NCBI GenBank assembly: GCA_025517485.1
Contig: JAOPKB010000003.1
Location: 248,001 to 312,000, forward strand
Source: Natronoglomus mannanivorans
Lineage (GTDB): Archaea > Halobacteriota > Halobacteria > Halobacteriales > Natrialbaceae
DNA: 64,000 nucleotides
Direction: 5' to 3'
The translations under genes were made by a program, and so were the position numbers. How positions within the stretch are numbered: position 1 is the first letter of the stretch; every line of letters starts with the position of its first letter. The notes below the pieces were generated by a model that did no database searches, was not told the origin of the DNA, and worked only from the letters and a program-made list of their open reading frames with translations. Shown here in pieces: positions 32,717 to 64,000 of this stretch.

Positions 32717-34630
32717 ATGACAGACGAGATCGACGAGACAGCTGAGACAGGCGAGAGGAACCGAACGGAGGACCGAACAGAGGCGAGCGCGTCGACCACG
32801 AGAGTTCATACCGATTCGAACAGACTCCTCGAGGGCTCCCGACGCGACTTTCTGAAAACCGCAGGGGCGAGTGCGGGCGCACTGGCGTTCGGGACGTCGA
32901 TGACCGGGTCGGTCGCCGCCGAACCACAGATTCCGACGCCGCCGCTGCACGTCGACGGCAACCTCATCAAGGATCCGGAGGGCAATCGAGTCCAACTTCG
33001 CGGACTCAACATGGCGGATCCGAAGCGACTGAACGTTACGGCGCCGGCCCGCGGGAAGAACGCCGAACACGTCGTGGACCTGCTGACCGACCAGAATCGG
33101 GGCTGGCATCCACACGTGATTCGCGTCCCAGTCCAGCCGATCGACATCGGTGAGCACACGCCGGGCCACATCGCCGGACCACCGGATCCGATCGCGTTCA
33201 CCGAAGCCCAACTCGAGGACTACCTCGAGACCCACCTCGACCCGGTGATCGATCACCTAGAGCAACGCGGCGTCTACGCGATCGTCGACTTTCACCGCCA
33301 CTGGCGCGAACGGGGTGAGGACGAACTCTGGCTGTTCGACCAGCAGACCGGCGATCCGAACGAGGCGCTCCAGGAGGAAGTCGACATGTTCTGGGACATC
33401 GTCGCACCGCGGTACGCCGATCGATCCCACGTCCTCTACGAGGTGTACAACGAGCCGACGACGCCGGGAATGTGGGACGACCCGATGGGCGAGAACAACG
33501 AGTACTTACAAGACTACTGGCGGTACTGGAAGAATCTGGCCCAGCCGTGGGTCGATACGATCCGCGAGCACGCGGACAACATCGTCCTCGTCGGCTCGCC
33601 GAGCTGGACCCAGAGCCCCGAGGGCTACTTCGTCGAGCCGTTCGACGGCGACAACCTCGCGTACACGTATCACATCTATCCCGAACACAACGCGAGCAGA
33701 CAGGAAGACTGGGAAGACTCCACGATCAACGGACAGGGTGTCGAAGGTGTCTACGAGGAGGTCCCCCTGTTCGTCACCGAATTCGGCTGGGAAAACCCCA
33801 ACATCTACGTCGACGGCCCGCTCTCGGGCAACACGAGCGGGTTCGGGGAGACGTTCATGGACTGGCTCGAGTCGAGCGACGGGATCCACTGGATGGCCTG
33901 GTGTGCCGATCCGATCTGGCGTCCAGTCATGTTCGGTCGCTCGTTCATGGGCGAAGATCCGTACAATCCGGACGATCAGGATTCCGTCGACGATCCGTAC
34001 TCGGAGGCAGTTCCCACCAATTGTGAGGAACTACCCTGCGAGTGGGAACTGCTCGGCGGCGACGACTGGATGGGCGAGTTCATTCGAGAGAAACTCGAGG
34101 AGTACAAAGACGACGGCGTTCCGGGCGGGGAATTGACGAATCCGGAGGACCCGACAGCACCCACCGATCAGTGGACCGGGGAGGTTACCGAGACGAGTAT
34201 CGAAGTAGAGTGGGAGTCGGTCACAGACGCCGACGGCTACCGTCTCTATCTCGACGGCAGTCTCACGGAAGAGACGTCGACGACGACGGCGACGATCGCT
34301 GGTCTCGAGGCCGACACCGAGTACGAGATCGGCATCTCGTCGGTCGCCAACAGTGGGGAGTCCGACGTCGCGACGATGACGGTACGTACGCTTTCAGACG
34401 ACGAGTCGGAGGGCCCACCCGAGATCGACGGGATTCGGCCTGCAGATACGACCGGTGATGGGCTATACAACGACTTCACGGACAGCGGCTCGACGACGAC
34501 CACGGACGTGAACGTCTTCTTCGAACACGTCGACGACCCCGCCGTCACGGAGTATCCCCAGTACTACGACTTCGACGGCAACGGCGAAGTAAGCGTCACC
34601 GACGTTATCGAACTCTTCGAGTCGATCTGA
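32717..34630 (+). CDS. Tat-exported GH5 cellulase with FN3 and dockerin
   Basis: 637 residues. Order: acidic leader, twin-arginine signal (SRRDFLKTAGASAG, RR at 42-43), GH5 domain ~70-470, fibronectin-III module ~478-560, dockerin ~574-637. GH5 hallmarks are FHRHW, acid/base Glu246 in YEVYNEPTTPG and nucleophile Glu355 in FVTEFGW. The likely activity is endo-1,4-beta-glucanase on cellulose; the exact glucan preference is inferred. The dockerin has the pattern DTTGDGLYND-FTDSGSTTTTD and DFDGNGEVSVTD, of the FFEHVDDPAVTEY class. Its GH5 domain is closest to that of the scaffoldin (both begin EPQIPTP..HVDGNLIKDPEG). Confidence 0.92.
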   Translation: MTDEIDETAETGERNRTEDRTEASASTTRVHTDSNRLLEGSRRDFLKTAGASAGALAFGTSMTGSVAAEPQIPTPPLHVDGNLIKDPEGNRVQLRGLNMADPKRLNVTAPARGKNAEHVVDLLTDQNRGWHPHVIRVPVQPIDIGEHTPGHIAGPPDPIAFTEAQLEDYLETHLDPVIDHLEQRGVYAIVDFHRHWRERGEDELWLFDQQTGDPNEALQEEVDMFWDIVAPRYADRSHVLYEVYNEPTTPGMWDDPMGENNEYLQDYWRYWKNLAQPWVDTIREHADNIVLVGSPSWTQSPEGYFVEPFDGDNLAYTYHIYPEHNASRQEDWEDSTINGQGVEGVYEEVPLFVTEFGWENPNIYVDGPLSGNTSGFGETFMDWLESSDGIHWMAWCADPIWRPVMFGRSFMGEDPYNPDDQDSVDDPYSEAVPTNCEELPCEWELLGGDDWMGEFIREKLEEYKDDGVPGGELTNPEDPTAPTDQWTGEVTETSIEVEWESVTDADGYRLYLDGSLTEETSTTTATIAGLEADTEYEIGISSVANSGESDVATMTVRTLSDDESEGPPEIDGIRPADTTGDGLYNDFTDSGSTTTTDVNVFFEHVDDPAVTEYPQYYDFDGNGEVSVTDVIELFESI

Positions 34631-34781
34631 GCGCTGAGAGACTCGAGTTTGTGAAGCGATTGCAGGTTTCGAAGAACTGGATCGAAACGACCTCGATGGA
34701 ATCTGGAGCAGACGTTGTTATCGGCTCCAATCACCACACAGGCAACTGGGAGGGGGGTAAAATGTTATAGTATCGATGATG

Positions 34782-34808
34782 GAAAATTTTATATGGGTAT
34801 TCACCTAA
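34782..34808 (+). promoter_or_regulatory. promoter-like element of the second GH5 gene
   Basis: gaaaattttat followed about 15 bases later by cctaata resembles a BRE/TATA element. A closely similar arrangement precedes the scaffoldin (36973..37004), and related words occur at 57351 and 62343. It lies 93-119 bp upstream of the start codon, implying a leader of roughly 80-90 bases. Confidence 0.45.
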
Positions 34809-34900
34809 TAAGGGAGATGAGGCTTCGAACGAACCTCACGCACTACGTATCGGTAGCGATCACAGGCGCTATCTGAGCACGGTGTACGTTCGATCACACC

Positions 34901-36733
34901 ATGAGCGAGAACACGAATCATAACGGGCGAAAACAGTCGAATAGACGAAGTCAAACGACAGGAACGACACGTCGTTCCTTCATGAAAGCGGCGAGTGCGG
35001 GTGCAGTCGCCGCCGGTCTCGGTACCAGCATGATGGGCAGTGCCAGTGCTGCAGGGATCAACCTGCCGCCGCTGGCACGTGACGGGAACAAGATCGTCGA
35101 TCCGAGCGGAAACGAGGTCATCCTCCGCGGCGTGAGTATCGCCGATCCCGGCGAACAGAGCCGTGACTGGCGTGGCCAGACGGCACCCGAGACCTTCGAA
35201 CTCGCGACGGATCAGAGCGAGGGGTGGTACAACCGGATCATCCGCGTTCCGATACAGGCCGAGTTCATCGCCGCCGGTACCGAAGCGCCAGCACCTGAGC
35301 AGATGCCCCACGGCGACGACTGGGGTCCACTCCTGCCAGGTGCCTTCGACGCGAGCGACGTAGAGTGGTACTGTCAGACCTACATCGACGAACTCGTCGA
35401 GCTCGGGCGCCAACAGGGCGCCTACGTGATGCTCGACTACCACCGGCACTATCCCGTCTTCCACAACGAGGAGCACTCGGAGTACGACATCTCCGACGAT
35501 ATCTGGATCTGTTCTTCCGACGGCGGCGAGGACTGGCGAGATCCGGACGTCTGTGGCGAGCGGGGAGTCCTCTGGCACGGCGAGGACCAGGTGGACGACA
35601 TCTGGAACCTGATCGACGACCAGAACATTCTGGAAGCGTTCGAACTCGACGAGGACGATATCTTCCTCGAGCCTGCGTCGGTTTCGAACGCGCTCGACGA
35701 CGAACTGCACACGTTCTGGGAGGTCGTTGCGGACCGTTACGCCGAGGACATGCACGTCGTCTTCGACGTTTACAACGAGCCGACCGGTCCGTACGGCGGT
35801 GACTGGGGCGGTCAACACCGGACGGCAGGCGAGCTCTCCAACCCGGTTGCTGCACCCGGCGAGGCGGAAGGCGACTACGATGTGACCCAGCCAGGAATGA
35901 AAGGCTGGTACGACCTGTGGGTCGACCGTGCACAGCCGTGGATCGACACGGTCGAGGACAACGCGCCGGGACACATCGTCACGATCGGCAATCCCCGCTG
36001 GAGCCAGTACACCTACTGGGCACCGCACAACGAGTTCGACGCCGAGCACATGTGTTACACGTCTCACGTGTACACCCAAGACGACATGCGACCGCTCGAC
36101 GAGAAGATCGGCCCGGCGACCGAACAGGTGCCGGTCTTCTTCAGCGAGTTCGGCTGGATGGACCACGATGGACTGGTTCCGACCCCGTGGATGGACGGCA
36201 GTCGCGAAGAGTTCGGGCCCGAGTTCGAGCAGTTCATGGAGAGCCACGACGTCCACCCGATTTGTTGGTGTTTCGACCACTCGTGGGAACCGAACTTCTT
36301 CGATCACGGCGACCCAGGACCGGGCGGCGCACAGGGCGCTCCCGACGCCGACGACTGGATGGACCACCTGATCGACACGACGCCCGGTCAGTTCTGGCAC
36401 GAGTACGTCCAGGAGAAAGAAGGAGACAGAGACCAGCCAGTCGACGGCGACACCGCGTATCCTGACGGCGACACCGGTCCGAACTCGTGTCACGGTCTGA
36501 GTGCCGGCGAGTGTTACGGTGACACTGACACCCCAACGCCCGGAGAACCGCAGGACACCACCGGTGACGGCCTCTACAACGACATCACTGGCAGCGGCTC
36601 GACGACCACCAGTGACGTCACCGAGTTCTTCAGTGGGTTTACCGACGAGTACTCCGATCCACAGTACTACGACTTCACCGGCAGCGGATCTGTGACCACG
36701 AGCGACGTCGTCGAACTCTTCGAGTCGATCTAA
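34901..36733 (+). CDS. Tat-exported GH5 glycoside hydrolase with dockerin
   Basis: 610 residues. Twin-arginine signal TRRSFMKAASAGAV (RR 24-25), GH5 domain ~53-505, short linker, dockerin ~549-610. Catalytic landmarks: DYHRHY, acid/base Glu293 in DVYNEPTGPYGG, nucleophile Glu416 in FFSEFGW. The domain has an insertion at about residues 187-262 (after HRHYPVF, with two cysteines CSSDGGEDWRDPDVC) that the other GH5 enzymes here lack. The dockerin is of the second class (DVTEFFSGFTDEYSDPQYYDF). No FN3 or CBM. Predicted secreted beta-glucanase; substrate specificity uncertain because of the insertion. Confidence 0.9.
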   Translation: MSENTNHNGRKQSNRRSQTTGTTRRSFMKAASAGAVAAGLGTSMMGSASAAGINLPPLARDGNKIVDPSGNEVILRGVSIADPGEQSRDWRGQTAPETFELATDQSEGWYNRIIRVPIQAEFIAAGTEAPAPEQMPHGDDWGPLLPGAFDASDVEWYCQTYIDELVELGRQQGAYVMLDYHRHYPVFHNEEHSEYDISDDIWICSSDGGEDWRDPDVCGERGVLWHGEDQVDDIWNLIDDQNILEAFELDEDDIFLEPASVSNALDDELHTFWEVVADRYAEDMHVVFDVYNEPTGPYGGDWGGQHRTAGELSNPVAAPGEAEGDYDVTQPGMKGWYDLWVDRAQPWIDTVEDNAPGHIVTIGNPRWSQYTYWAPHNEFDAEHMCYTSHVYTQDDMRPLDEKIGPATEQVPVFFSEFGWMDHDGLVPTPWMDGSREEFGPEFEQFMESHDVHPICWCFDHSWEPNFFDHGDPGPGGAQGAPDADDWMDHLIDTTPGQFWHEYVQEKEGDRDQPVDGDTAYPDGDTGPNSCHGLSAGECYGDTDTPTPGEPQDTTGDGLYNDITGSGSTTTSDVTEFFSGFTDEYSDPQYYDFTGSGSVTTSDVVELFESI

Positions 36734-36972
36734 GGACCGAAGAACTCGAATTCAGAGCCCAGTAATTGACACCGATCGACAATCGAAAACCGCGCCATTC
36801 ACGATTCCCCACTCGCGGTCACTCACCGACGATCGCTGTGGGGCGCTCTCCATCTGGGAGAGCAACACCACGATTCGGTACACAGAGCCAGCACACTGCG
36901 ATCAGTGTCGATCGATATCGTGGCGGCGACGATTCGATCACAGTAACATCCTCTATTCTATAGCAGAACTAT

Positions 36973-37004: not shown

Positions 37005-37112
37005 AGTAGTGGACTGCACCACGCGTACGTCCGTACCGTCTGTTCACGGCACGGGTACACGGACGATAGTGGGGTGTTCAGGGCGACAGCCCCTAGCGGG
37101 GATTTCAAAAGC

Positions 37113-40100
37113 ATGAGCGAGAACACAACAGAATCCGACCGAGACGAAGAAGAACCGAGTAACGGGACACGCTGGGACACGTCACGCCGTACATTTATGA
37201 AAACGGCGAGCGTCAGCGCTGGCGCGCTCGCGTTCGGGTCCGCGAGCATATCGGGCCTGGCGAGTGCGGAACCGCAGATCCCGACACCGCAGCTGCACGT
37301 CGACGGAAACCTGATCAAGGATCCGGAAGGCAACACGGTCAACCTGCGCGGACTGAACATCGTCGACCCCAAGCGTGCAGACACCCTCGCGTCGTCTCGA
37401 GGGAAGAACGCCGTACAGATGGTCGACATGCTCACGGACAAGAGCGACGGGTGGCACGCTCACGTGATTCGGATTCCCGTTCAGCCGGTCGACATCGGCG
37501 ACCACGAGGCAGGGCATATAGCGGGCCCACCGCAACCGGTCGCGTTCACGGAAGCCGAACTCGAGGACTACCTCGAAGAGCACCTCGATCCGGTCGTCGA
37601 GGCGTGTAAGGAACGGGGCGTCTACGCGATCGTCGACTTCCACCGTCACTGGCGTGACGAGGAAAACGACAACGTCGTCGACTGGGACGATCCCGAACTC
37701 GCCGAAGAGGTCGAGATGTTCTGGGAGATCGTCGCGCCGCGGTACGCCGACGAGTCTCACGTCATGTACGAAGTGTACAACGAGCCGACCGAACCCGGCG
37801 TCTGGGGAGCTGCGACCACCGAAGAAGAGAGCTGGGCCGCAGACGTCTGGCGCGACTGGCAGGAACAGGCACAGCCGTGGGTCGACACGATCCGAGAGCA
37901 CGCCGAGGACACGCTCGTCCTGATCGGGTCGCCGAGCTGGACGCAAGCTCCCGAGGGAGCGCTCGTCGAACCCTTCGAGGGCGAGAACCTCGTCTATACC
38001 TACCACATCTATCCCGAACACGAGGTGAGCCAGCGACAGGAGTGGGACGATACAACCCACGAGGAGGCTATGGACGAAGGGTACTCGAACCAGGGCGTCA
38101 GTCACGTCTACGAGGAGTACCCGCTGTTCGTCACGGAGTTTGGATGGCAAGACGGTGCCAGCGAACCGACCAGTGGGACGACCTCCGGCTTCGGCGAACC
38201 CTTCATGGAGTGGATGGAATCCAGCGACGCCATCCACTGGACGGCGTGGTGTGCGGACATCTGGTGGGAATCGCCAATGTTCCAGCGCGCGTTCGACGCG
38301 GAGGAAGCCGGAGAAGAACCCGAGTGTGACGACCTTCCGTGTGAGTGGGACTTACTCGGCGAAGACGTCGGCAGCTACGACGACAACATGGGCGCGTTCA
38401 TCAAGGACACGCTCGCGGAGTACCAGGACGACGGCGTTCCGGCCGGAACCGTCTCCGGACCGGGTGGATCGGATCCCGAGTCCGGAGGCGATGGTCTGGT
38501 CTCCGTCGAACTCTCTGCGGACGAAATCGACGAAGGAGAGACCGTCGAAGCTACGGTCTCTATCGCGGAGATTCCGGACGGCCTCTCCGGCTTGCTCGGT
38601 GACGCCGGCGTCGACGATCCCAGCGTCGCGACCGTCGTCGACGCGAGCGTCAATTCGGACTTCGGCATGGTTCAGGACCCCGAATTCTCCGACGATGGTT
38701 CGATGGTCAACCTCGTCGCTGCCGACATCAGTAGCGCCTTCGAAGCGGGCGACACCGATATCGAACTCTTCACGCTCACGCTCGAGGGACAGGGCGACGG
38801 CGTTACCAACGTCGTCCTCGAAGATCTGATCGAAGCGGGTGACGGCACCTTCTACGACTTCGAACTCGGCGATATTTCCCTCACCGTCGGTGAGGGTGTC
38901 GGCGACGGTGAGGACGAGGAGGAAGACGAAAACGGAGAAGAGGACGAAAACGGAGAAGAGGACGAAGACGACACCGAAACTGGTGAGCTGTCCGTTTCGG
39001 TCGACGTTTCCACGGAACAGCTCGAGATCGGCGAGACGGTCGAAGCCGCCGTCTCCATTTCGGAGCTTCCACGCGGACTCTCCGGGCTGCTCGGTGACGC
39101 CGGTGTGAGCGACGCCAGCACTGCAACCGTCGTCGACGCGACCGTCAACCCGGACTTCGATATGATTCAGGATATCGAACTCTCCGCGGACGGTTCGATG
39201 GTCAACCTCGTCGCCGCCGACACCGGCAGTGCCTTCAACGAAGGAGACACCGACGTCGAACTGTTCAGCCTCGAGATCGAGGGACAGGACGACGGTGATG
39301 TCGATATCGTCATCGAAGACATGATCGAGGCCGGCGACGGCACGTTCTACGACTTCTCCCTCGACGCGCCGACGCTCACTGTCGGCGATGGCGTCGAAGA
39401 TGGCGAAGAGGACGACGAAGAGGAGACAGACGACGTAACCGTCACCGCCGACCTCTCGACGAACGAAATCGAGGCAGGCGAGACCGCCGAAGCCACGGTC
39501 TCTATCTCGAGTCTTCCACGCGGGCTCTCCGGCCTGCTCGGTGACGCCGGCGTGAGCAACATCGACGCTGCCACTGTCACCGACGCGACCGTCAACCCCG
39601 ATTTCGATATGATTCAGGATATCGAACTCTCCGCGGACGGCTCGATGGTCAATCTCGTCGCTGCAGATACCGGCAACGCGTTCGAGGAGGGTGCGACCGA
39701 CGTCGAACTCTTTACCCTCGAGTTCACCGGACAGGGTGCGGGCGAGACGGAGATCGTCCTCGAGGATCTGATCGAGGCCCGCGACGGCACCTTCTACGAC
39801 TTCGAGTTCGATTCCCCGACCCTCTCGGTCGACGGCGAGATCGAGGGCGACGACACGGTCGTTACCGCCGATCTCTCGACGGACGAGATCGAGGCGGGCG
39901 AGACTGCCGAGGCCGCGATCTCCATCTCGCATCTCCCACGCGGGCTCTCCGGCCTGCTCGGCGATGCGGGTGTGAGCAACATCGACGCCGCGACTGTCGT
40001 CGACGCGACCGTCAATCCGGACTTCGATATGATCCAGGATATCGAGATTTCGGATGACGGTTCCATGGTCAACCTCGTCGCTGCCGACACCGGCAGTGCC

Positions 40101-45931: not shown

Positions 45932-46396
45932 AGCGGTTGGTCCAGCGACCCGTTGATTTTCACTGCTCGAATCGGAGTGTGACGTTCGATCCGAATCGTC
46001 GGTTCATCAGTCTCGAAGGTTCGGATCTGGGATCCGTGGTCGCGGCCTCACTGGACTCTCGTTCGATGGCCGGGGGCCGATCATCACCGTTCGTTGCAGA
46101 TACATTTCATTTATAGTGGTGAACGAATTACTGTCGTGAAGATACTATTTAGTGCGTTAGTTCCATTGGTGTATCTAACCGACAAGAGGGAGGAGGGTAA
46201 CTGCGAGAGACCGTCAGAAAGGAGGTCTGCTGGCGGATCAGTGAGTGACGACATTAATTTCCCAAGTGTACTAATATTATTTACTAGAGCCAGTAGTTTT
46301 AATATGTTCTGGGGGAGTATGTTAGGGTGCAGCTTTGCATGCGTAGCGGACACAGGATCGTGGCGAACACAGGCGAATCCGATCGACAGAACGACA
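45932..46396. other. intergenic with AT-rich promoter region
   Basis: No gene recognised. AT-rich words catttatagtgg near 46108 and ctaatattatttac near 46270 are promoter candidates for the next gene. An open frame from 46094 continues into that gene but encodes a non-family leader. Confidence 0.45.
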
Positions 46397-53526: not shown

Positions 53527-55260
53527 ATGACAACCAACGACGAAATACCGACGACAGCAGACGAGTATCGAACCAAAAAACCACCGCGAGTCGACCACGA
53601 GGAGGGCGACGACCGAACGGACGAACCGACCGAGTGGATCGACACGTTGGCACTCGAGCGGCGCAGTTACCTCCGGTCGATCGGGGCCGTGGGCGCACTC
53701 GGTTCGCTCACAGGATTCACTGGGGCGACCGGGGGTGTCGCCGCACAGGACGACGATAGGGACTGGGAGGCGGCAGCCGACGAGCGTATCGAAACGTATC
53801 GGACGGGCGATCTCGAGGTCGTCGTCGAGGACGAATCCGGAGAACCGATCGCCGGAGCCGACGTCGACGTAGAGATGCGAGCTCACGATTTCGGCTTCGG
53901 GGTCGCGCTCTCTGCACCGCGGGTCCTCGAGGAGTCGGCGGACGCCGATCAGTATCGCGAGCACGTGCCGGAACTGTTCAACAAAGCCGTCCTCGGCAAC
54001 CACCACAAGTGGCGCTTCTGGGAGGAAAACCGCGAGACCGCCGACGAGGCGACCCAGTGGGCACTCGATCAGGGACTCGACGTGCGCGGACACACGTGCA
54101 TCTGGTCCAATCGCGACGCCTACGCCGTCCCGGCGGACGTCGAAGACGCGATCGACGAGGGAGACGCCGAACACATTCGAGAGCGAAGTCTCGAGCACAT
54201 CGAGGAGATCATCACCCACTACGGCGACGACGTCGAGGAGTGGGACGTCGTCAACGAGGCGGTCCACGAGTACGCGCTCGTGGAGGGTGTGTACGGCGAT
54301 GCCGTCGACGACGATCCGTGGGAGGGCGAGGTCGTCCCTTGGCAGTCACCGTTGCTGGCCGAGTGGTACGAGAGAGCCCAGGCGGTCGCCGAGCAGGAGG
54401 GGGTCGGAATCGCGGTCAACGACTACAACACGCTCGTCGGTCCCCACGACTATGCGCGTGACTGGTATCGGGCACAGATCGAGTTCCTACTCGAGGAGGG
54501 GATCGATCTCGACGGAATCGGAATGCAGTGTCACTTCGGTGTGGACGAGCGGCTCACTCCAGAAGAGATCATCGCGGGGCTGGACCTGTACGCAGACTAC
54601 GGAGCCGAGTTGCGTGCCACGGAGTTCGACACGTTCCAGGGCGAGTGGAGTCGGGAGCAGCAAGCCGACTACCTCTACGAGTTCCTGAAGACGTTCTTCA
54701 GCCATCCACAGACACAGGACTTCGTGATGTGGGGGTTCTGGGACGGCGACCACTGGGGAGAGAGCTACGGTGAAGAGGACGACGCGCCGCTTTTCACCGA
54801 GGACTGGGAGCCCAAGCCGGCCTACGATCGGTACGTCGAACTCGTGTTCGAGGAGTGGTGGACCGACGAGGCCGGTTCGACCGGTGCCGACGGCACCTAC
54901 GCGACGACGGCGTTCCTCGGTGAACACGAGCTGACGGTGGACACCGGGGAGGAAACGATCACTAAAACGGTCGACGTCACCGATGCCGACGGGACGACCA
55001 CCGTAACGGTGACTGGGGATGGTGAGACCGGATCAGGTGAGGGTCCACCATCGATCGACGGCTACCAGCCCGCGGATACGACCGGTGACGGGCTGTACAA
55101 CGATATTACGGGCAGCGGCTCGACGACGACCACGGACGTGAACGTCTTCTTCGAGCACGTCGATGACCCTGCTGTCACGGAGTATCCCCAGTACTACGAC
55201 TTCGACGGCAACGGCCAGGTGAGCGTAACCGACGTCGTCGACCTGTTCGACAGCCTTTGA
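53527..55260 (+). CDS. Tat-exported GH10 xylanase with dockerin
   Basis: 577 residues. Signal ERRSYLRSIGAVGALGSL (RR 45-46). GH10 barrel ~105-445 with KWRFWE, RGHTCIWS, acid/base Glu244 (WDVVNEAVHE) and nucleophile Glu366 (RATEFDTFQG). The post-catalytic beta-sandwich (HELTVDTGEETITKTVDVT) is kept; FN3 and CBM are absent. Dockerin ~513-577 of the FFEHVDDPAVTEY class. N-terminal and dockerin sequences are closest to the GH10 gene at 48942, indicating tandem duplication. The leaders also match at the DNA level just after the start codon. Confidence 0.92.
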   Translation: MTTNDEIPTTADEYRTKKPPRVDHEEGDDRTDEPTEWIDTLALERRSYLRSIGAVGALGSLTGFTGATGGVAAQDDDRDWEAAADERIETYRTGDLEVVVEDESGEPIAGADVDVEMRAHDFGFGVALSAPRVLEESADADQYREHVPELFNKAVLGNHHKWRFWEENRETADEATQWALDQGLDVRGHTCIWSNRDAYAVPADVEDAIDEGDAEHIRERSLEHIEEIITHYGDDVEEWDVVNEAVHEYALVEGVYGDAVDDDPWEGEVVPWQSPLLAEWYERAQAVAEQEGVGIAVNDYNTLVGPHDYARDWYRAQIEFLLEEGIDLDGIGMQCHFGVDERLTPEEIIAGLDLYADYGAELRATEFDTFQGEWSREQQADYLYEFLKTFFSHPQTQDFVMWGFWDGDHWGESYGEEDDAPLFTEDWEPKPAYDRYVELVFEEWWTDEAGSTGADGTYATTAFLGEHELTVDTGEETITKTVDVTDADGTTTVTVTGDGETGSGEGPPSIDGYQPADTTGDGLYNDITGSGSTTTTDVNVFFEHVDDPAVTEYPQYYDFDGNGQVSVTDVVDLFDSL

Positions 55261-55474
55261 AGCGGTCGGGCCAGCGAATCACCGGTTCGACCTGGTCAGT
55301 GTGACCCATACATTCAATATCACACTGTGTGTAAATACCGAAGAATCGACTGCGACACAGTCGGACAGATGGGACGACCGATCCAGCGAAGATTCCGAAC
55401 GGTGTTGTCGACGGAATCCCGCCGGGAGTCTATGCGGTCAGCCGCGGCTATCCACATCCAACTCGAGTAGATCA

Positions 55475-57277
55475 ATGACAGACACCGACCCACACGAGGA
55501 CAGACCGGAGTACAGACGATCGATCCAGGGGACGACGTATCGGACGAGGCCAGCGGAGCGTGGCGGAGGCTCCGAGTACGTCCCGGATGCCGCCGATCGA
55601 AGCAGACGGGCGTTCCTCGCGGCGATTGGCGCTGGTGCCGGGGCGCTGGCGCTCGGTACTGGAACCGTCGCCGCCGACCACGACGAGATCCCCCGCGACT
55701 CGGTGGAACTCGGCGACCGCGGGATTCCGACCCCGTGGCTCCACCGCGAGGGTAACGAACTCAGAGATCCCGAGGGGAACAGGGTCGTCCTGCGAGGCGT
55801 GAACGTCACCGATCCCGCCAGGGCGGAGTCCCTGCTGTGGCGCTCGCCGCTGTGGCAGAACATCGAACACGCGACCGATCCCGACAGGGACTGGTACTCG
55901 CGGGTCATCAGGATCCCGGTCCAGACCGGCGACGTCGCGAACGTCGATCCCGACGACGGGAGCATTCTTGGCTCGCCGACCGACGAGGTCGATCCCGGCG
56001 AGTTCACGAAGGCCCAACTCGAAGCCTACATCGAGGGATATCTCCGGCCGGCCGTCGACTTCTGTGCGGACGTCGGGGTCTACTGTATCGTCGACTACCA
56101 CCGTCACGACGATCAGAGCGTCGAGTACACCGATCCCGACCTCTACGAGGAAGTGACGATGTTTTGGGAGACGGTCGCGCCGGAGTTCGCCGAGGATTCA
56201 CACGTCCTCTACGAGGTGTACAACGAGCCGATCGGGCCCTACGCCGGCGAAGGCCAGAACGAGGATCACGACGTCTTCGACCCCGAAGGCGAGGAGACGT
56301 GGTTGCTCTGGCGCGAAACAGCCCAGCCGTGGGTCGATACGATCCGCGAGCACGCCCCGGACAACGTGATCATCGTCGGCTCCCCGCGGTGGAGCCAGTG
56401 GACCTACTGGGCGCCCGAACACGAGTTCGAGGGCGAGAACCTCGCTTACGCCGCCCACGTCTACACACACGAGAACCTCCGGCCGCTCGCCGAGTACTTC
56501 GGCGACCCCGCCGAGGAGGTACCCGTCTTCCTGAGCGAGTTCGGGTGGACCACCGACTTCAACGCCGACTTCCTCGTTGGCACCCCCGAAGAACACGGAC
56601 AGGAGTTCTACGACTTCCTCGAGGAGTACGACAGCATCCACTGGCAAGCGTGGTGTTTCGACCCGTTCTGGCAACCGATTATGTTCGACTTCGACGACTC
56701 GACCCACGAGTGGGAGCTGCTTGGTGGGGACTATCAGGGCGAGTTCTTCCGAGACTATCTGGCCGAGAAACGCGACGACGACATTCCGCTCGCGTCCGGC
56801 GGGTCGGACTCACCGCCGGCACCGGCGGAGCTGTCGGTGACACGCTCGAGCGAGACGACGCTGGAACTGGCCTGGACCGCCGTGGACGCCGCGTCGTCGT
56901 ACGGACTCTACGTCGAGGGCGACTTCGAAGCGGAGACCGACGCCACCGAAACGGAGATCACCGTCGATTCGACCGGCGAGCTCGAGGTCGGTGTGACGGC
57001 GATCGACGCGGACGGAAACGAGTCGACGCCAGTTACGCGGACGGTTTCGGCTGGAGACGGACCGCCGGCGATCGACGGGACCCAGCCCGCGGACACCACC
57101 GGCGACGGACTGTACAACGACTTTACCAGCAGTGGCTCGACGACCACCACGGACGTGACCGTCTTCTTCGAACACGTCGACGACCCCGCGATCACCGAGT
57201 ATCCCCAGTACTACGACTTCACTGGCAACGGCCGGGTGACGGTGACCGACGTCGTCGAACTCTTCGACAGCCTGTAG
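55475..57277 (+). CDS. Tat-exported GH5 cellulase with FN3 and dockerin
   Basis: 600 residues. Tat signal RSRRAFLAAIGAGAGALALG (RR 44-45). GH5 ~80-430 with DYHRHDDQ, acid/base Glu251 in EVYNEPIGPYAG and nucleophile Glu355 in FLSEFGW. FN3 ~446-527, dockerin ~537-600 of the FFEHVDDPAITEY class. The start at 55475 is chosen over 55301, because the intervening 58 codons are cysteine-rich and unlike any signal leader. A CACACTGTGTG palindrome in an AT-rich setting at 55321-55331 may mark its promoter. The pseudogene at 59931 is derived from this subgroup. Confidence 0.9.
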   Translation: MTDTDPHEDRPEYRRSIQGTTYRTRPAERGGGSEYVPDAADRSRRAFLAAIGAGAGALALGTGTVAADHDEIPRDSVELGDRGIPTPWLHREGNELRDPEGNRVVLRGVNVTDPARAESLLWRSPLWQNIEHATDPDRDWYSRVIRIPVQTGDVANVDPDDGSILGSPTDEVDPGEFTKAQLEAYIEGYLRPAVDFCADVGVYCIVDYHRHDDQSVEYTDPDLYEEVTMFWETVAPEFAEDSHVLYEVYNEPIGPYAGEGQNEDHDVFDPEGEETWLLWRETAQPWVDTIREHAPDNVIIVGSPRWSQWTYWAPEHEFEGENLAYAAHVYTHENLRPLAEYFGDPAEEVPVFLSEFGWTTDFNADFLVGTPEEHGQEFYDFLEEYDSIHWQAWCFDPFWQPIMFDFDDSTHEWELLGGDYQGEFFRDYLAEKRDDDIPLASGGSDSPPAPAELSVTRSSETTLELAWTAVDAASSYGLYVEGDFEAETDATETEITVDSTGELEVGVTAIDADGNESTPVTRTVSAGDGPPAIDGTQPADTTGDGLYNDFTSSGSTTTTDVTVFFEHVDDPAITEYPQYYDFTGNGRVTVTDVVELFDSL

Positions 57278-57300
57278 GGTTCTCGAGGGCCGATGGATCG

Positions 57301-57322: not shown

Positions 57323-57335
57323 CCGTCGTCACAGT

Positions 57336-57362: not shown

Positions 57363-57650
57363 TTAGAGCTCGTATATTTAGTGTAGGTCACACAGGAACG
57401 TACGAGAGAGGACCGCACTCGAGTCCGAACCGACGGGACAGTCGTTCACGATCGGGTGCTTCGAGACCGGCGGGAGACGAGACGACGCGCGACGATCGAA
57501 CGAACCGAAGAGGAGAAATCGAAAGCCGGCGCCCGTCGGAAGGCGACGGGGCCGAGCGTCGTGGCCGTGGAACTCGGGACGAGCGTGACCAGTACTGAAT
57601 CGGCGATGGAGGTCGATATCGCCGAAACGAACACGGAGACGAACACCACT

Positions 57651-59903
57651 ATGCGAGACACAGAATCCAACTCTAACCCCAACCCTAACTCCGACGAACC
57701 GAAGGAATCGACGCCCGACCACGCAGTTTCGGACCCGAGAACGAAAACACCGCCATCGACCTCTCGTCGGGCCGTCCTCGCGGCCGTCGGTGCCGGAATG
57801 ATGGCCGGTTCCGGCGCGTTCGCGATCGGTGCCAGCGGAGCCGAACGGGAGTCGATCGACAGACGGTACCTCGAGTGCAGTCGGCCGACGATCGATCGTG
57901 AGGCGTTCCCCGAAACCGTTCAGGCGGAGTTCGACGAGGCACTCGAGTCCGGTCGATACGAATCCGATCGACCGCCGCGAGTGCTCGAGACGATAGATAT
58001 CGAGGAATCGCACGTCCGTCTCGATGGAACGGTCTACACGGCGGTGGTCGACGAGACCGCCGACGGAACGTACGTTCTCACCCTCCATGTGGAGACGATC
58101 CCGACGCTCGGCGAGCCGCGGACGCTCGATATTCGGAATCGGAGCGGGGAGTCGCGGACGCTGATGGTGCAAATCGAGTCACCGGCCGGGAGCGAAGCGG
58201 GAGACGAGGCCGTCGAACCCGAATCCGAGGTACTGTACGATGGGGCGGTCGAAATCGACGCCGGCGAGCGACGAACGGTCTGGGGAACGAACGCGATCGG
58301 CACGTACGACCTGACGATCGAAACCGAAGACGGAGAGCGCGTCGAGGACGGCTTTCACGTCACCGAAGGCGGCTTCACCAGCGTCGAGATCGGCGAGGAT
58401 GGTGGCGTGGGAGTCCTCCAGGCCCAGGCAGGTCTCGTGCAGTGTGAGTTCGACCCCGAGGCGTACTCCTCACCCTGGGTCGACCTCGAGGTCGAGAGCG
58501 AGCACCTCGAACCGGGCGAACGGACGACGGCGGCCCTGTTCCTGACGTACACGACCGAGGGAGTGAGCGAGTACGACCTCGAAGTGACCGTCGACGACGC
58601 GAACGTCGTCCGGATCACGGACGTCCAGTACGACGAGGCGTTCGACGCTGGTGACGCGCCGGGAATCGCAGCGGACGGGTCGGCGGCGACGCTCCGAGCA
58701 GTCGACACGACCGAGGCCGTCCCGTCCGCGGCACGGTTCGTCCCGCTGGCGACGGTGGAACTCGAGGCGACAGACGGCGTGGCCGACGGAGAGGAGTTCG
58801 GGACTCGAGTCGACGTCGCGGTCGAGTCGATGAGCGACGACGACGGATCGCCCGTCGACGCGAACGGCGAGAGCACCTCGTTCACGGTCGCACGGCCACT
58901 GGAGTGGGGGACAGGAGTCGACCGGTACGCGTACTCGCGTGACAGTCGAGGACTGGATCAGGGAGAACGGGACCTCCCTCTGGTGACGATCGGCGACGAC
59001 GCCGTCGTCGTCCACGGATCGTCGACCACGGGACCGAGTGTCTGTAGCGCAGACGAGTTGCTGGAACTGGCCGTCGACGAGACGGAGGGGACACTGATGG
59101 CGACCGTGTCGGGACCGAACGATCCCGAGCACGACGCCGGTGATTGTACGGACGACGTTGCCGCCGTCTCCTACGAACTGGTCGCGACCCTCGAGGAGGG
59201 GATTGGCCCCGCGGAAACCGTTCGTCTCACGGAACGGGCCTACGCGCGAAGCGGCACCAGCGTGGTCATCCGTGACGACGCTCGGCCGGCCGTTCGCGGC
59301 GTCGACGACTACGAGTTCTCCCTCGTCGATCGCGAGTTCGGAGACCCCGAAGCGGCCGACCACGACCCCGAGGTGAGCGTCGAGGGCGGAACGGTCGTCG
59401 TCGCCGGCACGATCGAGTTGCCGTACGTCGCCTGCCAGACGGTCGAACCGGCGCTGGTCGCCTACGACGAGGAGTGGGGTCGGTTGGTGGTCGAGGTCAC
59501 AAAGGCGTGGGCAGACGGGGTCGATCCCGGCGATCCCTGTCCGGCCGAAGCCGGGTTCCAGGGGTACGAACTTCGGGTCCCGGTCGACGGAGGCGTCGAT
59601 ACCCTCCGACGAGTCAGTGCGGTCGAACCGGCCGTCGACGGCACCCGTCTCGTTACCGTCGATGGACGCGATCTCGAATCGAGTGCGGAGATCGAATTGA
59701 ACGGCTACACACCGCAGGATCTGAACGGTGATGGACTGTACCGCGACGTCGACGGCAACGGCGAACTCGGGACCAACGACGTGGTCACCCTCTTCGATCA
59801 TCTCGAACACGAAGCGGTGACGGCGAACCCCGAAGCGTTCGACTTCGCGGGCACCGGGGAGGTCACCACGACTGACGTCGTCGAACTGTTCGAAGAGCTG
59901 TGA
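57651..59903 (+). CDS. Tat-exported protein with cohesin-like domain, two Cys-pair repeats and divergent dockerin
   Basis: 750 residues. An Asn/Pro/Glu leader precedes a Tat signal (TSRRAVLAAVGAGMMAG, RR 39-40). Residues ~60-275 are beta-rich and unrecognised. Residues ~277-415 resemble a cohesin fold (VDLEVESEHLEPGERTTAAL, VSEYDLEVTVDDANVVRITDV). Two copies of an unknown ~110-residue unit follow (~424-540, ~547-665), each with a VVV-G strand, a Cys, a D-x-L-V strand and a second Cys. The dockerin (~683-750) has canonical calcium loops DLNGDG and DVDGNGELGTND, unlike the others here. No catalytic domain. With both cohesin-like and dockerin parts it may be an adaptor. Start codons at 57606 and 57456 are possible; 57651 is preferred because its leader resembles that of the GH10 gene at 48942. 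Confidence 0.75.
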   Translation: MRDTESNSNPNPNSDEPKESTPDHAVSDPRTKTPPSTSRRAVLAAVGAGMMAGSGAFAIGASGAERESIDRRYLECSRPTIDREAFPETVQAEFDEALESGRYESDRPPRVLETIDIEESHVRLDGTVYTAVVDETADGTYVLTLHVETIPTLGEPRTLDIRNRSGESRTLMVQIESPAGSEAGDEAVEPESEVLYDGAVEIDAGERRTVWGTNAIGTYDLTIETEDGERVEDGFHVTEGGFTSVEIGEDGGVGVLQAQAGLVQCEFDPEAYSSPWVDLEVESEHLEPGERTTAALFLTYTTEGVSEYDLEVTVDDANVVRITDVQYDEAFDAGDAPGIAADGSAATLRAVDTTEAVPSAARFVPLATVELEATDGVADGEEFGTRVDVAVESMSDDDGSPVDANGESTSFTVARPLEWGTGVDRYAYSRDSRGLDQGERDLPLVTIGDDAVVVHGSSTTGPSVCSADELLELAVDETEGTLMATVSGPNDPEHDAGDCTDDVAAVSYELVATLEEGIGPAETVRLTERAYARSGTSVVIRDDARPAVRGVDDYEFSLVDREFGDPEAADHDPEVSVEGGTVVVAGTIELPYVACQTVEPALVAYDEEWGRLVVEVTKAWADGVDPGDPCPAEAGFQGYELRVPVDGGVDTLRRVSAVEPAVDGTRLVTVDGRDLESSAEIELNGYTPQDLNGDGLYRDVDGNGELGTNDVVTLFDHLEHEAVTANPEAFDFAGTGEVTTTDVVELFEEL

Positions 59904-59930
59904 CGCGAGACTGAGGGGCAGATTACTGTA

Positions 59931-60202
59931 CACCGCACCAGCGAGCCTCGGTCGTGGTCGGATTGCTTGACTGGAACGCCGGCACCGACTGGGCGCTGCA
60001 CGAGGAGTTCGGGAAAAACCTACGTCTACATCGACGACCGGCTTCGGCTGCTGACAACGTACTTCTGGCCCCCGTCTTCCTCGCCAAGTTCGGCTGGATC
60101 GACTTCGAACAGACACCGTGGTCGGGCGAATTGTCGTCCGAATACACCCTCGAGTTCGAGATGTACCCAGTCCGCCCACCTACGGTGCCGTTCAATTACT
60201 GA
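59931..60202 (+). pseudogene. degraded GH5 cellulase fragment
   Basis: DNA and broken frames align with the middle of the GH5 gene at 55475. WNAGTDWALHEEFGKNL corresponds to WSQWTYWAPEHEFEGENL, VYIDDRLRLLTTYF (shifted frame) to VYTHENLRPLAEYF, and PVFLAKFGW to PVFLSEFGW. In the last block the nucleophile Glu is Lys. The part with the acid/base Glu is missing and two frames are needed, so it is a dead relic. It ends within the TATA region of the next gene. Confidence 0.7.
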
Positions 60203-60245
60203 CTCCATAACAATAAAATACAAGTTATTAGTATTGGAAAGTATA

Positions 60246-62024
60246 ATGGATGGCGAGACCCAGATTCGACGACGAAATCTGCTCACGGCGATCAGTGGAC
60301 TCACCGCGACGAGTGCACTCGTCGCTGGTGTCGGATCGACAGCGGCGAAATCAACCCTTGCCCGCAACCCCATCTCGGATTCACTCACCGACTACGAGTT
60401 CAGGCGTATCGATCCCCCTTCCGTCCCACTCCAGCACCAGCCGTCGATTAGGTTCGAGGACGAGGCAGTCGTCGTACGTGGAACCCTCGCTGTCGACTCG
60501 GCGTACTGCGAGATCGCAACGCTGTCAGCGCTATCGTACGACGAAGACGAGGCGATACTGACAGTCGAGGTCGGAAACAGCAGGCTCGACGATATAGACG
60601 ACGGGCGAACGTGCTCGACGGACGTGACACAGGAGGCCTACGAGTTGACGGTGACGATCGAGGGGAACAGTCCAGAGACCGTCGAAATCAGCGAGAACAG
60701 TGCTGACCGCTTGCGAGAGTGGTCTATTGACCGTGACGATGACCCCCAGCCGTCGCTGTCCGGTATCGAAGACTACGAGTTTATCCTCCGTTCGTCGACC
60801 GACGGCGATCCCGATACGGAGCCACAGGTGGCGTTCGGGACGGACACTGTCCGGATCGCTGGCGACCTGCTGATCGGGTCGAGCAGCTGCAAAACTGCTG
60901 AACTATCGGGACTGGCCTACGACAAAGACGAGGACGTGCTGATGACATCCGTAGCGGACGCTTGGAACCAGTATCCGGCGACCGCAGACGATCCGCTCGA
61001 GTGTACAGACGATATGGCTGTCGTCTCCTACACGCTCGTCGTCTCGTTCGACGACGGGGCTCCTGCTGTCGTCATCGCTTCCGAAACCGACGTTCACGAC
61101 GACTGGCGAACGACCAGGATGGATCACCCAGCGAGTACCCAACCGGAGACGATGGGGATCGACGACTACAGGTTCAGGACGAACGTAACAAATGAGATCG
61201 ACGCCGACGACGACCCCCGCGTGTGGACCACCTTCGATCCTGACGACGTCGTGGTAGACGGGGAACTGTGGGTCGACTCGAGTACCTGCAAGACTGTTCG
61301 TCTCTCGAAACTCCTGTACGACGAGGACGATGGGACGCTAGAAGTCGAACTCACGGACGGGTGGATCAGCCCCCTCACACAAGCAGAGGGCGCACTCGTC
61401 GAGTGCGATGACGAGGTCGGCGTCGAATCGTACCTGATACAGGTGACGGTCAACGGTGATCAGTTGGACACCGTCACCGTCGTCGAGGACGATTACGAGG
61501 ACACGCGACAGGTGACCGTCCCCTACAGTGAGCCACGATCGCCGACGAACCTCGACGTTCTGGAGACGACGGCCACCACGATCACTCTTCAGTGGGAATC
61601 GGGCTTCGTGCTAACTGTCGATGGCTATCACTATCACGTCTTCCTCGACGGAGAACTCGAGCAGGAATCGGTGGATCAGCGAGAAACCACGCTGGGTGGC
61701 CTCGAACCCGAAACGAGTTACGAGATTGGTGTGGCGACGGTGGACGAGGGAGGAACTGAATCATCTCGAGAGACGATTACAGTGACGACCGAATCGAGAG
61801 GTCCAGAACCACCGGCTATCCATGAGGACGCGCCTCGAGATACGACCGACGATGGGATGTTCAACGATATCACAGGCTCTGGGTCGACGACGATGACTGA
61901 CGTGAACGTCTTCTTCGAACACATCGACGATCCGGCGGTCACGGAGTACCCCGACTACTACGACTTCAACGGTGACGGGAAGGTGAGTGTCTGGGACCTG
62001 ATCGAATTGTTCGAGTCGCTGTAG
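60246..62024 (+). CDS. Tat-exported protein with three Cys-pair repeats, FN3 and dockerin
   Basis: 592 residues. It opens almost directly with the Tat signal (IRRRNLLTAISGLTATSALV). Three copies of the unknown unit seen in 57651..59903 fill residues ~38-418; each has a strand VVVRG or VRIAGDL or VVVDGEL, then a Cys in SxxC(K/E)xxxLSxLxYD, then a V-V strand and a second Cys before a short beta pair. FN3 ~424-516, dockerin ~526-592 of the FFEHIDDPAVTEY class, with the second loop altered (DFNGDGKVSVWD). No catalytic motif is seen; it may be a binding or structural subunit. An AT-rich box at 60213-60235 close to the ATG suggests a leaderless transcript. Confidence 0.78.
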   Translation: MDGETQIRRRNLLTAISGLTATSALVAGVGSTAAKSTLARNPISDSLTDYEFRRIDPPSVPLQHQPSIRFEDEAVVVRGTLAVDSAYCEIATLSALSYDEDEAILTVEVGNSRLDDIDDGRTCSTDVTQEAYELTVTIEGNSPETVEISENSADRLREWSIDRDDDPQPSLSGIEDYEFILRSSTDGDPDTEPQVAFGTDTVRIAGDLLIGSSSCKTAELSGLAYDKDEDVLMTSVADAWNQYPATADDPLECTDDMAVVSYTLVVSFDDGAPAVVIASETDVHDDWRTTRMDHPASTQPETMGIDDYRFRTNVTNEIDADDDPRVWTTFDPDDVVVDGELWVDSSTCKTVRLSKLLYDEDDGTLEVELTDGWISPLTQAEGALVECDDEVGVESYLIQVTVNGDQLDTVTVVEDDYEDTRQVTVPYSEPRSPTNLDVLETTATTITLQWESGFVLTVDGYHYHVFLDGELEQESVDQRETTLGGLEPETSYEIGVATVDEGGTESSRETITVTTESRGPEPPAIHEDAPRDTTDDGMFNDITGSGSTTMTDVNVFFEHIDDPAVTEYPDYYDFNGDGKVSVWDLIELFESL

Positions 62025-62048
62025 GCGACTCCTCGAATCCGAATTCCG

Positions 62049-62245
62049 ACGAGCCGCCATCGATCGCGGAACCACGCTGCAGAACGCGACTGATAAGGAG
62101 TTCCGATAGCGATGGTCCTCGACGAAAAGACGCTCTTCGGGCACCGAGTAAATTTCGTCGTGACTCAATATCCACGTAAGACGATATAAGCGAGAATGAC
62201 GTTGTTACCGTCACCGACGTCGTTAGGTCGTTCGATCGGCTGTAA
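62049..62245 (+). pseudogene. degraded dockerin-coding fragment
   Basis: The spacer after the preceding gene aligns with dockerin DNA in order. gagccgccatcgatcgcgga matches the start of the EPPAIDG block. A middle part with ttcgggcaccgag..gtcgtgactcaatatcc matches the FFEHVDDPVVAEYP block. The end reads ENDVVTVTDVVRSFDRL-stop, matching GQVTVTDVVELFDSL-stop. Frames are broken, so this is a decayed second dockerin or the remains of a lost gene. Confidence 0.6.
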
Positions 62246-62342
62246 ACCCGTTCTGTTTCTCGAACGGTGACCGTTCTCTCGAGTGTCAGATCGATTCTCC
62301 GAGAACTGTCGCTGCTGAGCCACTTCTGTTTGACCATTGCTA

Positions 62343-62364
62343 GAAAACTTTAACCTAATACACG
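62343..62364 (+). promoter_or_regulatory. promoter-like element of the last GH5 gene
   Basis: gaaaactttaacctaatacacg matches the order GAAAA-TTTA-CTAAT found before 34901 and 37113. It lies 68-89 bp upstream of the start codon. Confidence 0.45.
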
Positions 62365-62431
62365 TTCGAATTTCGAGTGATTCACCTCGAATGCACGGTC
62401 GATGACACCGATGGGTTCGGGATCTGGGACC

Positions 62432-64000
62432 ATGAGTGATAACACCACCCCACGTGAGATGGACGAACAGGTGCAAAACGGACAGAATTCGACGACAGGT
62501 CGAGCGAGACATGACAATATCGGGAAGCCGCGAGGACACGACACCGGTGCGTGGACGCGCCGGAACTTCGTGAAGGCGGCGGGTGTCGGGGCGGCCACGG
62601 CCGGACTGTCGACGGCCTTTTCCGGGAGCGCGGCCGCCGGCGAGAACATGCCGACGCCGTGGCTCCACGTCGACGGCAACCTCGTGAAGGACCCCGAAGG
62701 GAACGAAGTCGTCCTGCGCGGGGTCAACGTCGTCGATCCGTGGCGAGCGAACCGGGACGCTCCCTACTACAAGATGCACATCGACGACTACGTCGAACTC
62801 GCCACGAACGAAGACGAGGGGTGGTACTCCCGGGTCGTTCGACTCCCGATGCAACCACAGGACATCGGGAAACACGGCTCCGGTGCCGTCGATCCGGTCG
62901 CCTTCACCGAAGACGAGTTACTGACCTACCTCGAGGAGCACGTCGATTCGGTAGTGGAGAAAGCAAGGGAACGAGGTGCCTACATCATCCTCGACTATCA
63001 CCGCCACTACCCGGACGGCCCGGACTGGACCGAGCCGGCTCTCGACGAGGAAATCCGGCTGTTCTGGAACGTCGTCGCGCCGCGATACAACGACCAGTCT
63101 CACGTCCTCTTCGAGGTGTACAACGAGCCGACGACGCCGTACGCTGGCCACGACCTGGGGCCGGAAAACGACATCGACATTCGGGATCCGGAGGGCGAAG
63201 AAACGTGGTTGCACTGGCGGGAAACCGCCCAGCCCTGGGTCGACCTGATTCGCGAGCACGCCGCGGACAACCTGATCCTCATCGGGTCACCCAGCTGGAG
63301 TCAGTGGACCTACTGGGCGGACGAACACGAGTTCGAAGGCGAGAACCTCGCCTACACCGGTCACGTCTACACCCAGGAGAGCCTCCGCCCGCTCGGCGAG
63401 TACTTCGGGAAACCCTCGGAGAACGTCCCGGTGTTCATGACCGAGTTCGGCTTCGGCGGTCCCGAACCGTACCTACAGGGAACGCGGGAGGTCCACGGCC
63501 AGCAGTTTTCGGACCTCTACACGGAGTACGACAGCATGCACTGGACGGCGTGGTGTTTCGACTTCGACTGGGAGCCCTCGATGCTCGACCGGGACTACGA
63601 GATCAAAAACGAGTGGGGCGAGTGGACCCAAGAGCACCTCGAGCAGTGGGCCGACGACGACTTGCCACAGGTCGAGAGCGAGTCGCCGCCGGTCGGCGGT
63701 GACAACGGTGACGATGACGACGACAACGACGACGAAGAGCCCGAATCGCCGACGCCACCCGCCGACCAGTGGGTCGACGAGGCCACCGAAACCAGCATCG
63801 AGGTGGGCTGGGAGGCGGTCGACGGAGCCGACGCCTATCGGGTCTTCCTCGAGAGCGACCTCGAGGAGGAGACGACGGCAACGACGGCGACGATCACGGG
63901 ACTCGAGGCCGACACGGCGTACGAACTCGGACTCTCGACGATCGTTGGCGACGAGGAGTCCGACGTCGTGACGACGACGGTGAGCACGCGTTCGGAGGGC
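62432..64000 (+). CDS. Tat-exported GH5 cellulase with FN3, cut by the window edge
   Basis: 523 codons are present and the frame is still open at the right edge. Tat signal TRRNFVKAAGVGAATAGLS (RR 43-44). GH5 ~72-415 with DYHRHYPDGPDW, acid/base Glu232 in EVYNEPTTPYAG and nucleophile Glu338 in FMTEFGF. An Asp/Asn/Glu linker (~429-440) leads to FN3 ~442-520. By analogy with its neighbours a dockerin should follow beyond 64000, but this is not seen. The ATG at 62432 gives a normal leader length. Confidence 0.9.
   Translation, partial: MSDNTTPREMDEQVQNGQNSTTGRARHDNIGKPRGHDTGAWTRRNFVKAAGVGAATAGLSTAFSGSAAAGENMPTPWLHVDGNLVKDPEGNEVVLRGVNVVDPWRANRDAPYYKMHIDDYVELATNEDEGWYSRVVRLPMQPQDIGKHGSGAVDPVAFTEDELLTYLEEHVDSVVEKARERGAYIILDYHRHYPDGPDWTEPALDEEIRLFWNVVAPRYNDQSHVLFEVYNEPTTPYAGHDLGPENDIDIRDPEGEETWLHWRETAQPWVDLIREHAADNLILIGSPSWSQWTYWADEHEFEGENLAYTGHVYTQESLRPLGEYFGKPSENVPVFMTEFGFGGPEPYLQGTREVHGQQFSDLYTEYDSMHWTAWCFDFDWEPSMLDRDYEIKNEWGEWTQEHLEQWADDDLPQVESESPPVGGDNGDDDDDNDDEEPESPTPPADQWVDEATETSIEVGWEAVDGADAYRVFLESDLEEETTATTATITGLEADTAYELGLSTIVGDEESDVVTTTVSTRSEG

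Follow-up and report, generated by a model that had tools for sequence, protein, structure and literature searches.

Cellulosomes are generally seen as machines that belong to anaerobic bacteria. In their bacterial form, as in the complex built on CipA of Acetivibrio thermocellus and in the simple clostridial ones, clustered genes encode a scaffoldin with several cohesins, many plant-wall hydrolases that carry dockerins, and a separate protein with a surface-anchored cohesin. Here we describe a gene cluster of the haloarchaeon Natronoglomus mannanivorans with the same set of components, in which the cohesin fold and the surface anchoring are predicted. The cluster begins within, and runs past the end of, the 64,000-nucleotide stretch that was analysed (the window, C23:248001-312000 of a 5.5-Mb draft genome in 46 contigs). 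Judging from sequences and structural models, its products would probably come together outside the cell as a cellulosome-like complex of a scaffoldin-like protein with eight cohesin-fold modules, a predicted anchor with a ninth module, and 17 dockerin proteins. The locus differs from the bacterial systems in its archaeal host, in a scaffoldin that starts with a GH5 domain and has neither CBM3 nor dockerin, in an anchor with a PGF-CTERM-like tail instead of SLH domains or sortase attachment, and in cohesins that lie below Pfam detection. We consider it a real and probably working haloarchaeal variant, which the papers we searched do not recognize as such. In the following, coordinates without prefix are window positions, C-numbers denote contigs, L-numbers loci that we read and G-numbers the haloarchaeal genomes sampled.

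The cohesin of Archaeoglobus fulgidus (2xdh) is, to our knowledge, not part of a scaffoldin with plant-wall enzymes. The title of its entry calls it non-cellulosomal. Archaea with cohesin or dockerin modules have been said, with reference to earlier work, to have no scaffoldins (PMC9012536). Section 32 of the same paper describes proteins of anaerobic methanotrophic archaea (ANME) in which a dockerin accompanies as many as five cohesins; archaeal proteins with several cohesins are therefore not new in themselves. The ANME proteins resemble the scaffoldin-like protein of our cluster in their multiple cohesins and differ from it by their dockerin; solute-binding proteins of transporters are a common dockerin cargo there, and that section contains no cellulase set.

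The N. mannanivorans cluster itself was published in 2024 (PMC10963439, locus tags MCU4972_2716 to 2735), with the same gene order as the 20 open reading frames (ORFs) considered here. Eleven protein sizes are identical (637, 610, 258, 759, 589, 741, 577, 815, 835, 490 and 578 aa), a twelfth (1755 aa) agrees when a later start is taken, seven differ in the start chosen, and 2731 is absent from the published table. For the product of ORF 57456, the search for related proteins gave an N. mannanivorans protein with 97% identity over 92%. In two of the three protein searches, this one among them, scoring covered the 7992 candidates with most words in common. On these matches the window comes from that species or from a very closely related strain. 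PMC10963439 recognizes type I dockerins but reads them as substrate-binding, and labels the repeat protein "GH5/CBM6" and the predicted anchor "S-layer glycoprotein"; the words cohesin and cellulosome do not occur in it. The substrate-binding reading is repeated for the dockerin of another haloarchaeal enzyme (PMC13260240). In passages of a paper on haloarchaeal cellulose metabolism, cellulosomes come up solely as something bacteria use and in one reference (PMC10267330). Neither cohesin nor dockerin is named in PMC12343721 and PMC9726719, and passages of PMC11239784 and PMC10301127 mention dockerins without any archaeal complex. Of the papers in the open-licence PMC literature that we opened, none describes a haloarchaeal cellulosome or scaffoldin. 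The original prediction, a note made from the window sequence without database searches, knew of no described haloarchaeal example of this completeness; the genes had been published, though without the cohesin reading, and the system is not unique, since related clusters exist in other haloarchaea.

Modules of predicted cohesin fold in a scaffoldin-like protein

ORF 37074-42380 comprises 1768 aa; the later start at 37113 yields 1755 aa, the length of MCU4972_2718 in PMC10963439. A twin-arginine translocation (Tat) signal at its beginning scores just above the NCBIfam cut-off (TIGR01409, 16.9 against 16.7 bits) and is followed by a GH5 domain, which the original prediction had overlooked. In simple bacterial cellulosomes, a scaffoldin is defined by at least two cohesins (PMC11557425); this protein has eight modules of about 134 aa each with predicted cohesin fold, in agreement with the multi-cohesin scaffoldin originally proposed. 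The surface-anchored cohesin proposed alongside it corresponds to a predicted anchor, an ORF of 258 aa with one module and a PGF-CTERM-like tail, which at 15.9 bits remains under the TIGR04126 cut-off of 24.5. The features of the two proteins are:

37113..42380, + strand: scaffoldin-like protein of 1755 aa, with Tat signal, GH5 domain, eight cohesin-fold modules and a C-terminal domain of about 140 aa
37326..38255, + strand: GH5 catalytic domain of the scaffoldin (PF00150, E 6.7e-35, residues 85-394)
38493..38894, + strand: cohesin-fold module 1
38988..39389, + strand: cohesin-fold module 2
39435..39836, + strand: cohesin-fold module 3
39855..40256, + strand: cohesin-fold module 4, the one used for structure prediction (pLDDT 94.5; solved cohesins among the matches)
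40275..40676, + strand: cohesin-fold module 5
40695..41096, + strand: cohesin-fold module 6
41112..41513, + strand: cohesin-fold module 7
41532..41933, + strand: cohesin-fold module 8
41958..42377, + strand: C-terminal domain, possible carbohydrate-binding module (alignment with three other cluster proteins; the protein is GH5/CBM6 in PMC10963439)
42657..43433, + strand: single-cohesin protein, predicted surface anchor, 258 aa, with twin-arginine motif, module at 42891-43295 and PGF-CTERM-like tail

The AlphaFold model of module 4 shows the β-sandwich of cohesins, and all 50 Foldseek matches listed were cohesins or scaffoldins; the modules of the scaffoldin and of the anchor are thus predicted to fold as cohesins. 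Sequence comparisons point in the same direction when relatives are included. PF00963 was the commonest Pfam family among 43 relatives of the modules, yet matched only six of them at E≤1 (best 4.1e-5). A profile built from these 43 had a scaffoldin cohesin as its best solved structure (E 0.0087), and a profile-profile comparison with Pfam-detected haloarchaeal cohesins gave 85.5%; a narrow profile of the nine cluster modules brought no gain against PDB or against the detected cohesins. Further, 28 of the 29 best-matching module loci in other haloarchaea hold a dockerin within 3.3 kb. The check proposed with the original prediction, a match of the repeats to cohesins by profile or by structure, therefore left the assignment intact, through the predicted fold and these comparisons of relatives.

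At the DNA level the modules are 70-94% identical, and identical stretches shared by modules 3-8 extend to at most 101 bp, so their number is not an obvious assembly error. Collapse or inflation of the repeats by misassembly was rejected on the strength of this run length and of the complete chromosome of KZCA124, in which the corresponding protein has ten modules. An antisense ORF of 1327 aa (38352-42335) was also rejected as a gene, being a mirror of the scaffoldin repeats.

At a threshold of 1e-3 the window genome has a single PF00963 match, C4:33241-33630 in L012:7978-8913. This 312-aa ORF with a PGF-like C-terminus represents a separate single cohesin, missed by the module profile of the cluster.

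Dockerin proteins of the cluster

The original prediction had not seen that the cluster runs on past the window, from 32717 to window-frame position 78822 (C23:326822), for a total of 46,106 bp with 20 ORFs and 17 dockerin proteins. Pfam scans assign nine of the latter to PF00150 (two of these nine being GH5_7 mannanases according to PMC10963439), three to GH10 and one to PL14; one more is mannanase-like without a PF00150 match and three are non-catalytic. Multiple plant-wall hydrolases of the cluster thus bear dockerins, as a cellulosome requires. For the part at 32717-64000, the prediction of ten complete dockerin proteins (four GH5, one mannanase-like, three GH10, two non-catalytic), with an eleventh candidate cut by the edge and all genes on one strand, was borne out in every count by the ORFs and Pfam scans. 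The eleventh is a GH5 protein whose dockerin lies past the window edge:

32717..34630, + strand: GH5 (PF00150), FN3 and dockerin (34430-34627)
34901..36733, + strand: GH5 (PF00150) and dockerin (36533-36730) of the short-linker class, without a Pfam dockerin match of its own
43652..45931, + strand: mannanase-like domain (GH5_7 in PMC10963439, no PF00150 match), FN3, CBM5/12-like domain and dockerin (45731-45928)
46094..48421, + strand: GH5 (PF00150) and dockerin (48221-48418) of the short-linker class
48942..50711, + strand: GH10 (PF00331) and dockerin (50511-50708)
51124..53349, + strand: GH10 (PF00331), FN3, CBM5/12 and dockerin (53149-53346) of the short-linker class
53527..55260, + strand: GH10 (PF00331) and dockerin (55060-55257)
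55301..57277, + strand: GH5 (PF00150) and dockerin (57077-57274)
57456..59903, + strand: non-catalytic protein with divergent cohesin-fold module (58473-58895) and dockerin (59703-59900), candidate adaptor
59967..62024, + strand: non-catalytic protein with FN3 and dockerin (61824-62021; PF00404 23.1 bits, cut-off 22.9)
62402..64000, + strand: GH5 and FN3, cut by the window end, with dockerin at L010:2028-2225 (C23:312028-312225)

The dockerin assignment is mixed but positive overall. In a genome search, PF00404 matched 12 of the 17 cluster copies at E≤0.01; five were above the cut-off, three of these only with their frame neighbours. In an hmmscan of whole proteins, one of the 17 (59967) exceeded the cut-off and 64608 fell narrowly under it (22.4 against 22.9 bits). 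The tails of 34901, 46094 and 51124, which gave no PF00404 match at E≤1 in the protein scan, constitute a second class with a linker two residues shorter. In KZCA124, the counterparts of 34901 and 46094 retain the short linker and match PF00404 with 24.5 bits (cut-off 22.9) and 18.7 bits, respectively, which supports the short-linker class as dockerins. Its conservation, as read from the sequences, suggests two conserved binding specificities.

The second calcium loop of the cluster dockerins is canonical, and the first has mostly T and S at positions 3 and 5. When a profile of the cluster dockerins was compared with PDB, all 60 matches listed were EF-hand proteins, with no solved dockerin among them. 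A broader profile, made from 26 haloarchaeal dockerins of which four belong to the G208 protease cluster (see below), matched the solved dockerins 1daq, 2mte, 2ccl, 5lxv, 1ohz and 4uyp at E-values of 4e-9 to 2e-6, ranking below three EF-hand proteins and a serine protease. PF00404 was the commonest Pfam family among these 26 sequences, with 23 matched at E≤0.01.

ORF 57456 has, besides its dockerin, the divergent cohesin-like module that the original prediction had missed. The module was detected at E 8.4e-9, and 46 of the 50 Foldseek matches listed for it were cohesin or scaffoldin entries. As the model of the long protein has a mean pLDDT of 49.6, its use was confined to the first ~150 residues (block means 46-88); the dockerin end, with block means of 46-62, supports nothing. 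With both modules in one chain, the protein is a candidate adaptor.

A profile of the 17 cluster dockerins detected 29 dockerins in the genome at E≤0.01, including these 17, which are the query's own members; they fall within the 0.84% of the genome that the cluster occupies (binomial 2e-28). The 12 outside, all of which were scanned (one ends at a locus edge), include one GH26, two GH43 and one GH9 protein. Elsewhere in the genome, at L072:536-5788 (C42), a subtilase with a terminal dockerin adjoins a 512-aa ORF with two cohesin-like modules, and at L054:3683-9737 (C6) the ORF after a PPC-domain repeat protein with a terminal dockerin comprises 967 aa and includes two weak cohesin-like modules.

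Related loci in other haloarchaea

Among 391 haloarchaeal genomes sampled, the module family is present in 104, PF00963 in 153 and PF00404 in 172. We re-searched 31 genomes, i.e. the 29 with at least three module matches plus G208 and G043, and found ORFs with at least three modules in eight of them (the window genome, G104, G002, G322, G265, G062, G105 and G209).

A scan of genome contigs returned one locus, in KZCA124 (Halomontanus rarus, L047). Its gene order is that of the window cluster, with a GH5 scaffoldin, an adjacent single-cohesin protein and dockerin-bearing GH5 and GH10 enzymes. The scaffoldin has ten modules instead of eight, and the GH5 and GH10 genes are fewer (PMC10963439). 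In G104, a GH5 multi-cohesin scaffoldin runs into a contig end, and a small cohesin protein is also present; ten of its dockerin ORFs were scanned and comprise six GH5, three GH9 and one GH81. We infer that this gene set fits Natronobiforma cellulositropha as described in PMC10963439. In Natrinema salaciae (G322), 12 dockerin ORFs lie in the 40 kb read, beside ORFs with three cohesins and one cohesin; the eight scanned include four GH5 and one rhamnogalacturonan lyase. G265 (L050) encodes five modules and a dockerin in one protein, together with a single-module protein and two dockerin-bearing GH5 enzymes, which is the canonical topology. In G002 (2.7 Mb), we counted 64 dockerins at E≤0.01 and 15 modules, with one ORF combining three modules and a dockerin.

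A locus of G208 mirrors the scaffoldin cluster with proteases. Its 2089-aa protein bears seven PF00963 stretches (L064:6164-12430, E 1.5e-83) and sits in a run of PF00082 subtilases that end in dockerins, several with internal cohesins (L064/L065, G208:C1:75001-115000). A locus of similar density lies at C1:470-492 kb in G043, a genome from the same genus.

From these loci we incline, cautiously, to the view that haloarchaea run a scaffoldin platform of their own. It would comprise cellulosomes adapted to salt in a number of genera (this species, KZCA124, G104, Natrinema salaciae, G265, G002), the seven-cohesin subtilase scaffold of G208 and single-enzyme phosphatase displays, all based on an archaeal cohesin/dockerin code with PGF-CTERM-type anchors.

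Proposed assembly and alternative explanations

In the assembly that we propose, the cluster proteins would leave the cell by the Tat route, for which most have signal motifs, and each dockerin, presumably a pair of calcium-loop helices, would insert into a cohesin as is typical of these families. The scaffoldin, with its own GH5 domain and a possibly carbohydrate-binding end, could gather up to eight enzymes, drawn from GH5 glucanases, mannanases, GH10 xylanases and PL14, on mannan or cellulose in insoluble form. The 258-aa protein would display one dockerin partner at the cell surface, the ORF 57456 product could serve as an adaptor through its cohesin and dockerin, and dockerin-tagged GH9, GH26 and GH43 proteins from elsewhere in the genome could join. 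All these contacts would have to work at the 3.5-4 M Na+ of the organism.

Several observations weigh against this proposal. PF00963 found nothing on the window modules, neither at E≤1 in the protein scan nor in the genome search, so that the Pfam check suggested with the original prediction came out positive, though mixed, for PF00404 but misses the modules for PF00963. Divergent cohesins can evade sequence profiles (PMC11557425). In addition, the scaffoldin has no dockerin, and the textbook link from scaffoldin to anchor is thereby missing; in this respect the cluster departs from complex cellulosomes, whose scaffoldin has a dockerin for the anchored cohesin. Nor does a Pfam scan find a CBM3 in the scaffoldin, the N-terminus being taken by GH5. 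Scaffoldins of simple cellulosomes have an N-terminal CBM3, although one bacterial exception without it is named (PMC11557425). Since the scaffoldin also has no surface anchor of its own, we call the complex cellulosome-like rather than a textbook simple or complex type.

The dockerin-free scaffoldin, for which the usual connection to the anchor is not available, also favours the better of two alternatives: that the cohesins and dockerins are real and mainly tether individual enzymes to the cell surface or the scaffoldin GH5 instead of forming a mixed complex of many enzymes, most dockerin enzymes being free or bound one per anchor. The module in other haloarchaea mostly occurs once per longer, dockerin-ended protein, in two scanned cases of PhoX type and a nucleotidase with the module inside (L052:6197-9589, L051:8466-11099; similar loci in L017-L045), and in 24 of 29 module loci a second single-module ORF adjoins the first, often with a PGF-CTERM-like tail in those read. 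Yet single display hardly accounts for tandem arrays of eight modules here and of ten in KZCA124 alongside many dockerin enzymes, and the recurrence of ORFs with at least three modules in eight of the 31 genomes also speaks against it; we consider this explanation unlikely. That the repeats are immunoglobulin-like (Ig-like) stalks or carbohydrate-binding modules, with substrate bound by the dockerin-like tails, follows the annotation of PMC10963439, whose substrate-binding reading PMC13260240 repeats for another dockerin; this alternative draws on the missing Pfam cohesin match and on the commonness of Ig-like folds, but is very improbable given the exclusively cohesin and scaffoldin entries among the 50 Foldseek matches listed and the co-occurrence of module and dockerin at 28 of the 29 best-scoring loci, for which we rejected plain Ig stalks, as well as the independent, Pfam-detected seven-cohesin protein among dockerin proteases.

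If the cellulosome-like assembly is real, a scaffoldin that occurs in an archaeon along with its set of plant-wall enzymes would extend this kind of machine to a new domain of life, and to an organism that showed no anaerobic growth in tests and lives in nearly saturated salt. Protein contacts under such conditions normally need different chemistry, and the cluster could yield salt-proof cohesin/dockerin pairs for enzyme assembly. The tests referred to were made with cellobiose, and the salt concentration, 3.5-4 M Na+, is that given for N. mannanivorans (PMC10963439). The assembly would also correct the substrate-binding role printed for haloarchaeal dockerins (PMC10963439, PMC13260240) and offer a testable explanation for the finding that, in the haloarchaea studied, only cell-bound cellulases attacked insoluble cellulose (PMC4569967).

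A domain shared by four cluster proteins

The ~140-aa domain at the C-terminus of the scaffoldin (41958-42377) recurs in three other proteins of the cluster (L010:4168-4599, 7129-7554 and 8109-8525). A Pfam scan gave no match for it and a PDB search no convincing solved relative; it is possibly a new carbohydrate-binding family. One of the four proteins is the product of the one ORF of the run, apart from the scaffoldin and the anchor, that has no dockerin (window-frame 69971-71707, L010:7971-9704), in which the domain accompanies a large part without Pfam or NCBIfam match. In PMC10963439, this protein carries the label CBM3.

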